Below, one piece after another: positions 40,944-45,042 of a DNA stretch of 64,000 bases. The stretch lies in contig JAOUBJ010000001.1 in NCBI GenBank assembly GCA_029860345.1, positions 259,089 to 323,088 on the forward strand, in the 5' to 3' direction. A program made the position numbers and the translations under genes. This DNA comes from Candidatus Zixiibacteriota bacterium. Its GTDB lineage: Bacteria; Zixibacteria; MSB-5A5; GN15; FEB-12. The notes under the pieces were generated by a model, which was not told where the DNA came from, searched no databases, and saw nothing but the letters and a program-made list of their open reading frames with translations. The first letter of the stretch is position 1; each line of letters starts with the position of its first letter.

Positions 40944-42275
40944 GTGAAGAGCATTTTTAAGGGATTGATTTTGTTTGCCGTCTTATTTGCGGTAGCCGTT
41001 CCCGTGAGCGCCGACACCGAACTTAAGTTCTCTGGGCAAATCAGACTTCGCGAAGAAGCCGACTTGAGAGATTTTGACACCGCCAAAACATGGCTCACGT
41101 TTGCCAACCTGCGCACCCGCGTCGCAGTCGAAGCAACCGTGGATGCCAATGCCCATGTCTTCGTCCAATTCCAGGACAGCCGGCAGATGGGTGGAAACAC
41201 ACAGTTCGGCACCAGAGCGTCTGGGCAGTTGAACGACGGCAAGAATGTCGACGTGCATCAAGCTTACTTCCAGGTCGACCGGTTATTGGTCGATGGCTTG
41301 GGTTTCAAAGCAGGCCGGTTTGAAATGAACTTCGGCAACCAGCGTGTATTCGGCGCCGTCGGCTGGAGCAACGTGGGCCGGGCATGGGAAGGCGGCATGG
41401 GCTGGTACGATCATGAAAAATACCGGATCACCGGCTTCGGCTTGAAAGCTACCGAAAAGAACAACGAGTACTACCACGCCGATTTCGATATCGGTGGTCT
41501 GTATGCAACCTGCAAAGAAGCGAATGTCGATCTGTTCTGGTTCTATGAGTACGATGCCGACACCACCGGTTACTGGTACAGCATCAACCGTCTGGACCGC
41601 CTCAATGCCGGTACCTACTTCAAACGGGAATATCCGGACTTGAAGCTCGACTTCGAGGGCAATTTCGTCTACCAGTGGGGTCAGCAACCGCGCGGTCTCT
41701 ACAATCCGTTCGGTGTGGGACTTGCCCGGAACAGGGACAAAATCGATATCGCTGCTTATATGTTCGCCTTTGAGGCTGGTTATAAAATCGACGCTCCGTG
41801 GCCGGGCAGGCTGGCTGTAGGCATCGACTATACATCAGGCGACGATGATGCTGCCGACGACAAGTTCAAAGCATACAACAATCTCTACGCGACCGCGCAC
41901 AAGTTTAACGGCTTCATGGACTACTTCACCGACGGAGCCAAGAGTGGTAGACCGTATGCCAACTCAGGTCTGGTCGACATCGTGGTGCGCGCGGCGGCTG
42001 AGCCGTATGCAGGCTGGAAAGCCAAGCTGGATGCACACTTTTACTCGACCAATAAGGACTACATGTACACAGCGAGCGACGGCTCCACTGTTGTTTCCAA
42101 CAAGGCCGGGATCGAACTGGATGCTACCCTGGCCACAACCGTGATTGACGGACTTAACATTCAGGGCGGCGCTTCATTCTTCTTTGCCGAGGATGATTTC
42201 ACCATGGCCGCCTCCGGTGTGGCCGACGCCGACCCGGGTATGTGGTTCTACGCTATGACCACGGTCAATTTCTGA
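40944..42275 (+). CDS. Outer-membrane porin, alginate-export-like beta-barrel
   Basis: The 443-residue protein has a signal peptide (about 1-23, ending VSA). It shows many alternating amphipathic strands ending in an aromatic C-terminus (YAMTTVNF), as expected for an outer-membrane barrel inserted by BAM. The opening ELKFSGQIRLREEADLRDF, the LRTRVAVEATVD strand and the GLGFKAGRFEMNFGNQRVFG motif are typical of the alginate-export/OprE-type porin family. The transported solute is unknown. It starts with GTG behind AGGAGAAG and is followed by a terminator, so it is transcribed separately from the cytochrome gene. Confidence 0.75.
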   Translation: MKSIFKGLILFAVLFAVAVPVSADTELKFSGQIRLREEADLRDFDTAKTWLTFANLRTRVAVEATVDANAHVFVQFQDSRQMGGNTQFGTRASGQLNDGKNVDVHQAYFQVDRLLVDGLGFKAGRFEMNFGNQRVFGAVGWSNVGRAWEGGMGWYDHEKYRITGFGLKATEKNNEYYHADFDIGGLYATCKEANVDLFWFYEYDADTTGYWYSINRLDRLNAGTYFKREYPDLKLDFEGNFVYQWGQQPRGLYNPFGVGLARNRDKIDIAAYMFAFEAGYKIDAPWPGRLAVGIDYTSGDDDAADDKFKAYNNLYATAHKFNGFMDYFTDGAKSGRPYANSGLVDIVVRAAAEPYAGWKAKLDAHFYSTNKDYMYTASDGSTVVSNKAGIELDATLATTVIDGLNIQGGASFFFAEDDFTMAASGVADADPGMWFYAMTTVNF

Positions 42276-42295: not shown

Positions 42296-42328
42296 AAGGT
42301 CGCCTTATTCGTGGGCGGCCTTTTTTTT
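42296..42328 (+). terminator. Rho-independent terminator of the porin gene
   Basis: AAGGTCGCC pairs with GGGCGGCCTT around a short loop and is followed by eight T residues. Confidence 0.88.
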
Positions 42329-42366: not shown

Positions 42367-42408
42367 TTGACTTAAGTCAAACCGGATCGATGTCGGTCTG
42401 TCGTTAAT
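42367..42408 (+). promoter_or_regulatory. CRP/FNR-type operator and -10 of the octaheme cytochrome gene
   Basis: A perfect dyad TTGACTTAAGTCAA (42367-42380) has half-sites TTGAC/GTCAA four bases apart, centred at 42373.5. A GTTAAT hexamer follows at 42403-42408. If GTTAAT is the -10 box, transcription starts near 42415 and the dyad centre is at -41.5, the class II activator position of CRP/FNR regulators. The same layout recurs at 44006-44047. No -35 box is seen, as expected for an activated promoter. Confidence 0.65.
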
Positions 42409-42505
42409 GAGATCAGACAAAGCAATCGTGTTCGGCACGATGGAAAAAGGAAGACAGTCAAGACAGGGAACGACCAAATTACACAGCAGAGGAAAGGGTT
42501 ACCAA

Positions 42506-43909
42506 ATGAAACGCATCAGTATCGTTGTTATACTCGGCTTATTGGCAGCAGCAGCCGTGTGGTCCCAGGGCGGTCGCTCGGTACCGGCATCGTTGTCGGA
42601 GGAATCGGCTTCGTGTATCGAGTGCCATGAGTCCGACATGCCGGGACTGACCAAAGAGTGGCGCCATAGCCGCCACTATGCCGCCGACGTAGGTTGTTAT
42701 GAATGCCACGCCGCGGCCGAAGGTGACGCCGACGCTATCGAGCACAACGGCTACAGCATCGCCGTGATCGTCTCGCCGCTTGATTGCTCCAAGTGTCACA
42801 AGCAGGAGTTCGACGAGTTTCAGAAGTCGCACCATGCCGACGCCGGGAAGATTCTCGGATCGCTTGATAACGTGCTCGGTGAAGTGGTCGAAGGCCCGAT
42901 GGCGGCCGTCAACGGATGCAAGCAGTGTCACGGTTCGATTGTCAAAGTGAACGAAGACGGCAGCCTTGACGCAGCCACCTGGCCGAACACCGGGATGGGT
43001 CGTATCAACCCGGACGGTTCCAAAGGTTCTTGCGCCGCCTGCCATTCACGGCATTCGTTCGATGCGGCGCTGGCCCGCCAACCGGAAAATTGCGGCAAGT
43101 GTCACCTTGGACCGGATCATCCGCAGAAGGAGATTTACGAGGAGTCCAAGCACGGTATCGCGTACTATGCCAACAAAGATCGGATGAATCTTCACAGTGC
43201 ATCGTGGGTGGTTGGAATCGATTACTCCGCTGCGCCGACCTGCGCCACCTGCCATATGTCGGCCACCAGCGAGTTGCCGCTTACACATGATGTCGGCGAT
43301 CGGATTAGCTGGACCCTCCGCCCGCTGGTATCGCAGAAAATTGATGCCGCCGCCAAGGCCAAAGGAAAGCCAACCAAGTCGTGGGAAGATCGTCGCAGTG
43401 ACATGAAGAAGGTCTGCGCCAACTGTCACACATCGAATTACATCGATAATTTCTATGTCCAGTACGATGGTGCGGTAAACCTGTATAACGACAAGTTCGC
43501 TATCCCGGTGTCCAGAATTGCCAAGAAAATCCGCGAGGCTGGTTTCCTCACCAACGACATTCCCTTTGATGACGAACTGGAGTGGATCGTCTTCTACTTG
43601 TGGCACCATGAAGGACGTCGCGCACGGATGGGAGCCGCTATGTTCGCACCGGACTACACCCAGTGGCACGGTTTTTACGAAGTGGCCGACCGGTTCTATA
43701 TGGAGTTCTTACCAGAAGTGGCAAAACTCGTTGAGCACGCCAAAGCCGAAGGTGGCGATAAGGCTAAAGCTGCCGAGGAAGTTGAAGCGATCGTCGCCGA
43801 AGTGCTCGAAATGGACGAACACAAATGGTTCACCGGCAACGAGCCGGCCGAGGTCAAGGCGGCGCGCATGAAAGCGGCCGAAGAGTTCAAGATGCGTTAC
43901 GTTGAATAG
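42506..43909 (+). CDS. Octaheme cytochrome c of the hydroxylamine oxidoreductase family
   Basis: From the ATG at 42506 (AGGAAAGGG site) the protein has 467 residues, with a signal peptide (about 1-21). Eight CxxCH heme motifs start at residues 37, 64, 94, 138, 176, 196, 246 and 304. A helical C-terminal domain follows, with NIDNFY-like text at YIDNFYVQYD and APDYTQWHGFYEVADRFY. Spacing and C-terminal domain match the HAO/octaheme family. These work in the periplasm and either oxidise hydroxylamine or hydrazine or reduce nitrite or hydroxylamine to ammonium. Y384 could be the heme-crosslinking tyrosine of oxidative HAO, but only alignment can tell. No NrfH-like or cytochrome partner gene is nearby. 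Confidence 0.85.
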   Translation: MKRISIVVILGLLAAAAVWSQGGRSVPASLSEESASCIECHESDMPGLTKEWRHSRHYAADVGCYECHAAAEGDADAIEHNGYSIAVIVSPLDCSKCHKQEFDEFQKSHHADAGKILGSLDNVLGEVVEGPMAAVNGCKQCHGSIVKVNEDGSLDAATWPNTGMGRINPDGSKGSCAACHSRHSFDAALARQPENCGKCHLGPDHPQKEIYEESKHGIAYYANKDRMNLHSASWVVGIDYSAAPTCATCHMSATSELPLTHDVGDRISWTLRPLVSQKIDAAAKAKGKPTKSWEDRRSDMKKVCANCHTSNYIDNFYVQYDGAVNLYNDKFAIPVSRIAKKIREAGFLTNDIPFDDELEWIVFYLWHHEGRRARMGAAMFAPDYTQWHGFYEVADRFYMEFLPEVAKLVEHAKAEGGDKAKAAEEVEAIVAEVLEMDEHKWFTGNEPAEVKAARMKAAEEFKMRYVE

Positions 43910-43936
43910 TTTCCGATGGTAGTGTGGGTTTACAGC

Positions 43937-43965
43937 AAAGGCCGCCTGAGAAGGCGGCCTTTTTC
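43937..43965 (+). terminator. Rho-independent terminator of the cytochrome gene
   Basis: AAGGCCGCC and GGCGGCCTT form a perfect 9-bp stem around TGAGAA, followed by a T tract. Confidence 0.9.
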
Positions 43966-44005
43966 TTGTGCTTCCTAGTTCCTACAAGTCCCGAGACTGA
44001 TCGAT

Positions 44006-44047
44006 GTGACATAAGTCAAACCGGAGCACCACCGATCTGTCGTTAAT
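44006..44047 (+). promoter_or_regulatory. Second copy of the CRP/FNR-type operator and -10
   Basis: GTGACATAAGTCAA (44006-44019) is the same dyad with one imperfect half-site, and GTTAAT lies at 44042-44047. The centre-to-hexamer distance is 29.5 bp, identical to the copy before the cytochrome gene. Common flanking text includes AAGTCAAACCGGA and TCTGTCGTTAAT. Confidence 0.65.
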
Positions 44048-44160
44048 AGATTTAGAAAGAGTAAGCATGTTCGTCGCAATATTTCAATTGCATGAATTGG
44101 TTCTTTGCAATATTCTATCTTGTCTTGAGATCTTAGGGATCGTAAAGGAAAGGCTTTGTT

Positions 44161-44751: not shown

Positions 44752-45042
44752 ACGACTGCACGGTACCCCACCTATAGCGAAGCGACAGGTGGGATACTAC
44801 TCGGTGCCTAGAGACCCCACCCGGCGCTACGCTTTGGGTGGGGTACCCTGTAGCCGAGTCTGAAGACTCGGCCACCACGAGTTTAGATTCATGGTTCGAC
44901 TCCGCTCACCATGAGGTGATAAACCACAAGCATGGTGTCGGGCGGGGTCGCCCAACACCACCTGTATGAGATTACCGCGCTCCTCCGCCCCGCCTGCGGC
45001 GGGGATCGCTCGCAAGGACTTCACAAAATCAAAAGACCGGAC
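44752..45042. repeat. Intergenic repeat block
   Basis: No gene is supported in 291 bp. It holds CCCCACCT/AGGTGGG and ACCCCACCC/GGGTGGGGT hairpins (44762-44848) and a short GAGTCTGAAGACTC repeat (44853-44882). ATGGTTCGACTCCGCTCACCATGAG is a hairpin form of the TTCGACTNCGCTCA element (44892-44916). The GGTGTCGGGCGGGGTCG palindrome (44934-44959) is the reverse of 4514-4539. A TATGAGATTACCGCGCTC element at about 44966 resembles 62811-62850. Confidence 0.6.

Follow-up and report, generated by a model that had tools for sequence, protein, structure and literature searches.

A predicted HcpR1/DNR-type nitrogen-oxide regulon in an uncultured phylum, with a probably copied promoter before an octaheme cytochrome gene and an orphan gene

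Introduction

The HcpR motif wyTTGACnnnnGTCAArw, together with a Ser/Pro rule for position 180 of the regulator, was described for Geobacter, Desulfuromonas and Desulfotalea (Rodionov et al. 2004, PMC545781; 2005, PMC1274295). The HcpR targets across these genera include hcp, frdX, nrfHA, nar and dnrN (Rodionov et al., PMC545781, PMC1274295). HcpR1 and DNR group together, and both are devoid of the FNR cysteines (Rodionov et al.).

The window analysed here, a stretch of 64,000 nucleotides from a Candidatus Zixiibacteriota bacterium, contains two promoter regions with dyads of this kind, located before an octaheme cytochrome gene and before an orphan membrane-protein-like gene. The type of regulon is already known; here it is found in an uncultured phylum.

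Results

The features of the locus are collected in Table 1. The same dyad at equal spacing, as described in the initial annotation, was verified in the sequence: in both promoters the distance from the dyad centre to the first base of GTTAAT is 29.5 bp, and the mismatch of dyad 2 is a T-to-G exchange at the first base of the dyad. The class II activator position proposed there agrees with the sequence of these predicted promoters, which have an operator near −41.5 adjoining the −10 element, as well as with the phylogenetic footprint in relatives.

Table 1. Features of the promoter regions and adjoining genes (positions in the window).
Feature	Position	Strand	Remarks
Porin-like gene (Alginate_exp, PF13372)	40944..42275	+	5' of octaheme gene
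Terminator-like hairpin with T run, gap between porin gene and promoter 1	42296..42328	+	Read from sequence; aligns with counterpart at 43937-43964
Dyad 1, TTGACTTAAGTCAA	42367..42380	+	Predicted HcpR/DNR-type operator, centre −41.5
Promoter 1, −10 element GTTAAT	42403..42408	+	Predicted start near 42415
HAO-superfamily octaheme cytochrome c, 467 aa	42506..43909	+	Sequence, family and fold model (pLDDT 71, moderate)
Terminator-like hairpin, 3' of octaheme gene	43937..43964	+	Read from sequence; resembles 42296-42328
Dyad 2, GTGACATAAGTCAA	44006..44019	+	Predicted operator, one mismatch, centre −41.5
Promoter 2, −10 element GTTAAT	44042..44047	+	Predicted start near 44054
Orphan membrane-protein-like gene, 196 aa	44161..44751	+	GC ~40%, relatives not found

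With at most one mismatch the dyad matches five times in the window against 2.45 expected. In the genome searched (4.76 Mb, nearest named relatives mostly Candidatus Zixiibacteriota) the exact TTGACN4GTCAA was found at seven places versus five for the reversed control; the bare dyad is therefore unremarkable alone, and its enrichment was dropped as proof. The genome scan that had been suggested for this motif thus left the bare dyad near control level, and singled out the dyad combined with a CGWTANT −10 element, which occurs genome-wide solely at the two window promoters (control 0).

Promoter regions 1 and 2 align over ~180 bp with a score of 54.5 (1000 shuffles: mean 11.3, maximum 23.5). 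Since the aligned part takes in the terminator, the spacer (ACCGGA...TCTGTC) and the leader, both promoters probably derive from a single terminator-promoter-leader segment by duplication, as far as can be judged from sequence. Piecewise support outside the sites is moderate, with p ~0.001 for the upstream segment containing the terminator and ~0.03 each for spacer and leader. The ribosome-binding sites of both genes are similar as well (AGGAAAGGGTT and AGGAAAGGCTT). If one promoter was copied, the equal spacing does not represent two independent observations; the use of the two promoters as independent evidence was accordingly rejected once both regions had been aligned. Promoter 2 probably arose as a lineage-specific duplicate of the octaheme promoter.

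Octaheme homologues were gathered from related genomes by protein search and not by motif. Of the 28 homologues, 11 have the dyad upstream with no more than one mismatch (shuffles: mean 0.34, maximum 2) and eight have the exact dyad there (shuffles: 0); it is absent before many more distant octaheme homologues. Nine relatives carry, at the exact 29.5-bp offset, a hexamer resembling TATAAT (GATATT, GATACT, GATAGT, GATTAT or a weaker form); the −10 score at this offset, 30 of 54, is the best of 45 offsets and was equalled by 12 of 20,000 shuffles. The consensus from relatives is TTGACTWAAGTCAA-N22-GATAnT, usually with C preceding the hexamer. We regard both predicted operators as real activator sites. 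Control of the octaheme gene is not universal, since in a same-genus genome (G002, C82:12000-22000) the dyad is lost before this gene and the −10 element TTGTCGTTAAT is kept. The earlier assignment of the octaheme and membrane-protein genes to one regulon is supported by the footprint for the former; the latter is a candidate member through its copied promoter.

Some further features of these regions were observed. In 41 aligned sites the −10 element mostly starts with G after C (CGATAnT), unlike TATAAT, and this type of element may reflect the sigma factor of the phylum. Upstream of the G002 octaheme gene there is a CRP-like palindrome, TGTGCCAGGCCGAGCACA, and at C25 of the same genome a weak profile match (E 0.18) is located before another multihaem gene.

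Profile R1 was built from sequence only, using the two window promoters and the octaheme promoters of nine relatives, and was run on 80 genomes; matches worse than ~E 0.1 were used solely if a regulator or octaheme gene nearby backed them. In relatives R1 sites precede genes for Hcp and NapA, each over the cut-off of its family (TIGR01703 and TIGR01706), for NapD, for other eight-haem (HAO-like) cytochromes and for a protein containing a hybrid-cluster-associated domain. They also precede genes for 4Fe-4S ferredoxins and ferredoxin/NapH-like proteins, and the members of these two groups in relatives were recognised by eye from sequence. In some relatives (L195, L200, L219) the site stands before the porin gene instead of the octaheme gene.

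In the window genome an exact dyad precedes the RIC/YtfE gene (TIGR03652 over cut-off), with TAGTTT at 22 nt. Another exact dyad, with TTTACT at 22 nt, is followed by an operon of ferredoxin, ferredoxin/NapH-like, DUF438/hemerythrin/PAS and DUF1858 genes (L271:4190-8027, G000:C7), which is an uncharacterised candidate NO-response operon; the NapH-likeness, scored on the window-genome member L271:5035-6198, is below the cut-off of that family. Exact dyads are also located 212 nt before a cytochrome c7/QrcA-like multihaem gene (L001 / L272, G000:C1:60480-60493) and 265 nt before an ArsC-like gene (L007), both intergenic and with uncertain targets, and two more (L003, L004) fall in or at coding sequence. 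The dyad at L001 also precedes a large respiratory-type operon, and has a weak hexamer where the −10 element is expected. Neither Hcp nor NapA was found over cut-off in the window genome: of the HcpR1-type core targets it has the ferredoxin operon, and in a relative a site precedes Hcp. Profile R2 gave no strong new sites in the window genome and missed the ferredoxin site, which had been found by the exact-dyad scan.

The search for a CRP/FNR-family regulator, advised in the initial annotation, yielded one clear DNR-like protein, the sole one over the Crp HTH family cut-off in the window genome (229 aa, G000:C4:292350-293036, minus strand). Its closest solved structure by sequence is DNR (3dkw) with 125 bits, the next having 94. 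The protein contains one cysteine and its orthologues contain 0-3, the near ones 0-2, hence no FNR-type cluster is expected. Matches at E <= 1e-25 were obtained in 44 of the 61 genomes searched, its own genome counted. In 17 relatives (16 of the 61-genome set and G043) the orthologous regulator gene has a motif site beginning <60 bp downstream of it, and among the loci inspected such sites mostly precede a ferredoxin gene. This linkage is an independent pointer, because the promoters on which R1 was trained have, as far as seen, no adjacent regulator gene. In the window genome the regulator gene adjoins no site.

The recognition helix of this protein family is GTIPETLSR or GTISETLSR (PETLSR / SETLSR in P0001 and orthologues), which puts Pro or Ser at position 180 in CRP numbering, followed by Glu 181, these positions being assigned by comparison with the published rule and not by structure-based alignment. 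The replacement of R180 by Pro with E181 kept, as in the window-genome regulator, is the change published for TTGACnnnnGTCAA. The predicted dyad-binding factor is most likely this single clear Crp/FNR protein of the window genome.

The likely start codon of the octaheme gene is at 42506 (ATGAAACGC). With its eight CxxCH motifs, and by sequence and fold, the protein belongs to the HAO superfamily. It is nearest to the Ignicoccus multihaem protein 4qo5, both by sequence and by the model (pLDDT 71), and the second by fold is the reducing HAO-like protein 6h5l. These structures and the company of the gene in the regulon suggest a reductive role: the cytochrome is probably a nitrite, NO or hydroxylamine reductase.

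The GC content of the orphan gene is near 40% versus ~55% around, and the gene stands between terminators and promoters of normal GC. Its protein belongs to no family, and searches of 111 other genomes, of plasmids and of viral contigs gave no homologue; the single-sequence model (pLDDT 62) was too poor for a fold search. Probably the gene was acquired or is young, and it probably captured the octaheme promoter. The intergenic region 3' of it (44760-44960) contains several segments that resemble inverted repeats (ccacctatagcgaagcgacaggtggg, ccccacccggcgctacgctttgggtgggg).

Discussion

The best explanation of these data, to which as a whole we would give a probability of about 0.87, is an HcpR1/DNR-type nitrogen-oxide regulon and not an oxygen FNR regulon. 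Conservation of the site, functions of the targets, linkage with the regulator and the recognition helix all argue for it. One dimeric activator of the Crp/FNR family, from the HcpR1/DNR clade, would serve both operators, sensing NO or a related nitrogen oxide. It would bind TTGAC-N4-GTCAA centred at −41.5 and switch on a promoter with a GATAnT/GTTAAT-like −10 element, in the manner of class II activators of the FNR type. The targets would handle nitrogen oxides by means of the octaheme cytochrome, RIC/YtfE and the products of the ferredoxin - ferredoxin/NapH-like - DUF438 operon, and the copied octaheme promoter would recruit the AT-rich orphan membrane gene into the regulon.

That two palindromes should show this equal spacing by chance is hardly credible: the exact dyad is indeed about as frequent as its reversed control, but the site is conserved among relatives at fixed spacing, which contradicts coincidence, and is linked there to the regulator gene. 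An oxygen-sensing (Fe-S) FNR regulon, with the dyad as a variant FNR box activating anaerobic respiration genes without oxygen, would be compatible with the FNR-like half-site, the position −41.5 and the anaerobic redox proteins among many targets. We consider it improbable and rejected it on the cysteines of the regulator, since the only clear Crp/FNR protein, with its single cysteine, should carry no FNR-type cluster, and RIC, Hcp and Nap among the targets point to nitrogen oxides. Thus, of the two signals named in the initial annotation, target functions and regulator linkage favour nitrogen oxides and the missing FNR cysteine set speaks against oxygen; NO or a related nitrogen oxide is the more likely effector of the predicted HcpR1/DNR-type regulon.

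The role of promoter 2 leaves more room for doubt. It might be a decayed functionless duplicate, the octaheme promoter alone being a true target: dyad 2 deviates at one base, the gene that follows it is an orphan of unusual GC content, and the copied spacer and leader have diverged. This is rather unlikely, however, as the dyad core and the −10 element are intact while the remainder of the copy diverged, the profile E-value of promoter 2 is 9e-5, and the orphan gene has an uninterrupted reading frame as well as a plausible ribosome-binding site. It is possible, and we put it forward tentatively, that the captured promoter, with terminator, operator, −10 element and, it appears, ribosome-binding site, recruited the orphan gene into the regulon, and that the orphan protein serves to handle NO/nitrite or to protect the membrane.

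For an uncultured phylum this predicted regulon supplies a nitrogen-oxide operator, the layout of its promoters and a probable regulator, and an orphan membrane protein joins the NO-response candidates. The catalytic direction of octaheme HAO proteins is hard to read from sequence, and the association with NO and nitrite response genes points to reduction or detoxification. No publication describing octaheme cytochromes of the HAO type under HcpR control was found in a search that covered mostly literature outside subscription.

The predicted regulon shares with that of HcpR1 the operator wyTTGACnnnnGTCAArw, exact in dyad 1, with one mismatch in dyad 2 and conserved in relatives; the half-site, which the initial annotation had set apart from the FNR consensus, is thus not a new one but that of the published HcpR motif. 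Both have a regulator with Pro/Ser 180 and Glu 181 and no FNR cysteine motif, and targets such as hcp, ferredoxin, dnrN/RIC, cytochromes and hemerythrins. The differences are the phylum, the presence of HAO-type octaheme cytochromes and a porin among the targets, and a window genome without hcp. The regulator is labelled HcpR1/DNR-type jointly, having been placed by solved-structure comparison and recognition helix. DNR of Pseudomonas aeruginosa (3dkw) resembles it as the closest solved structure, in the PET.SR recognition helix and in nitrogen-oxide gene targets; the published DNR box is TTGATnnnnATCAA, whereas the half-site here is TTGAC. Sites of some relatives have one ATCAA half. In comparison with the octaheme HAO superfamily (Ignicoccus 4qo5; reducing Kustc0457/0458, 6h5l), the present cytochrome is distinguished by its zixibacterial branch, known here from sequence, and by the porin gene and HcpR-type site that precede its gene, and is alike in its eight CxxCH haems, sequence and modelled fold.
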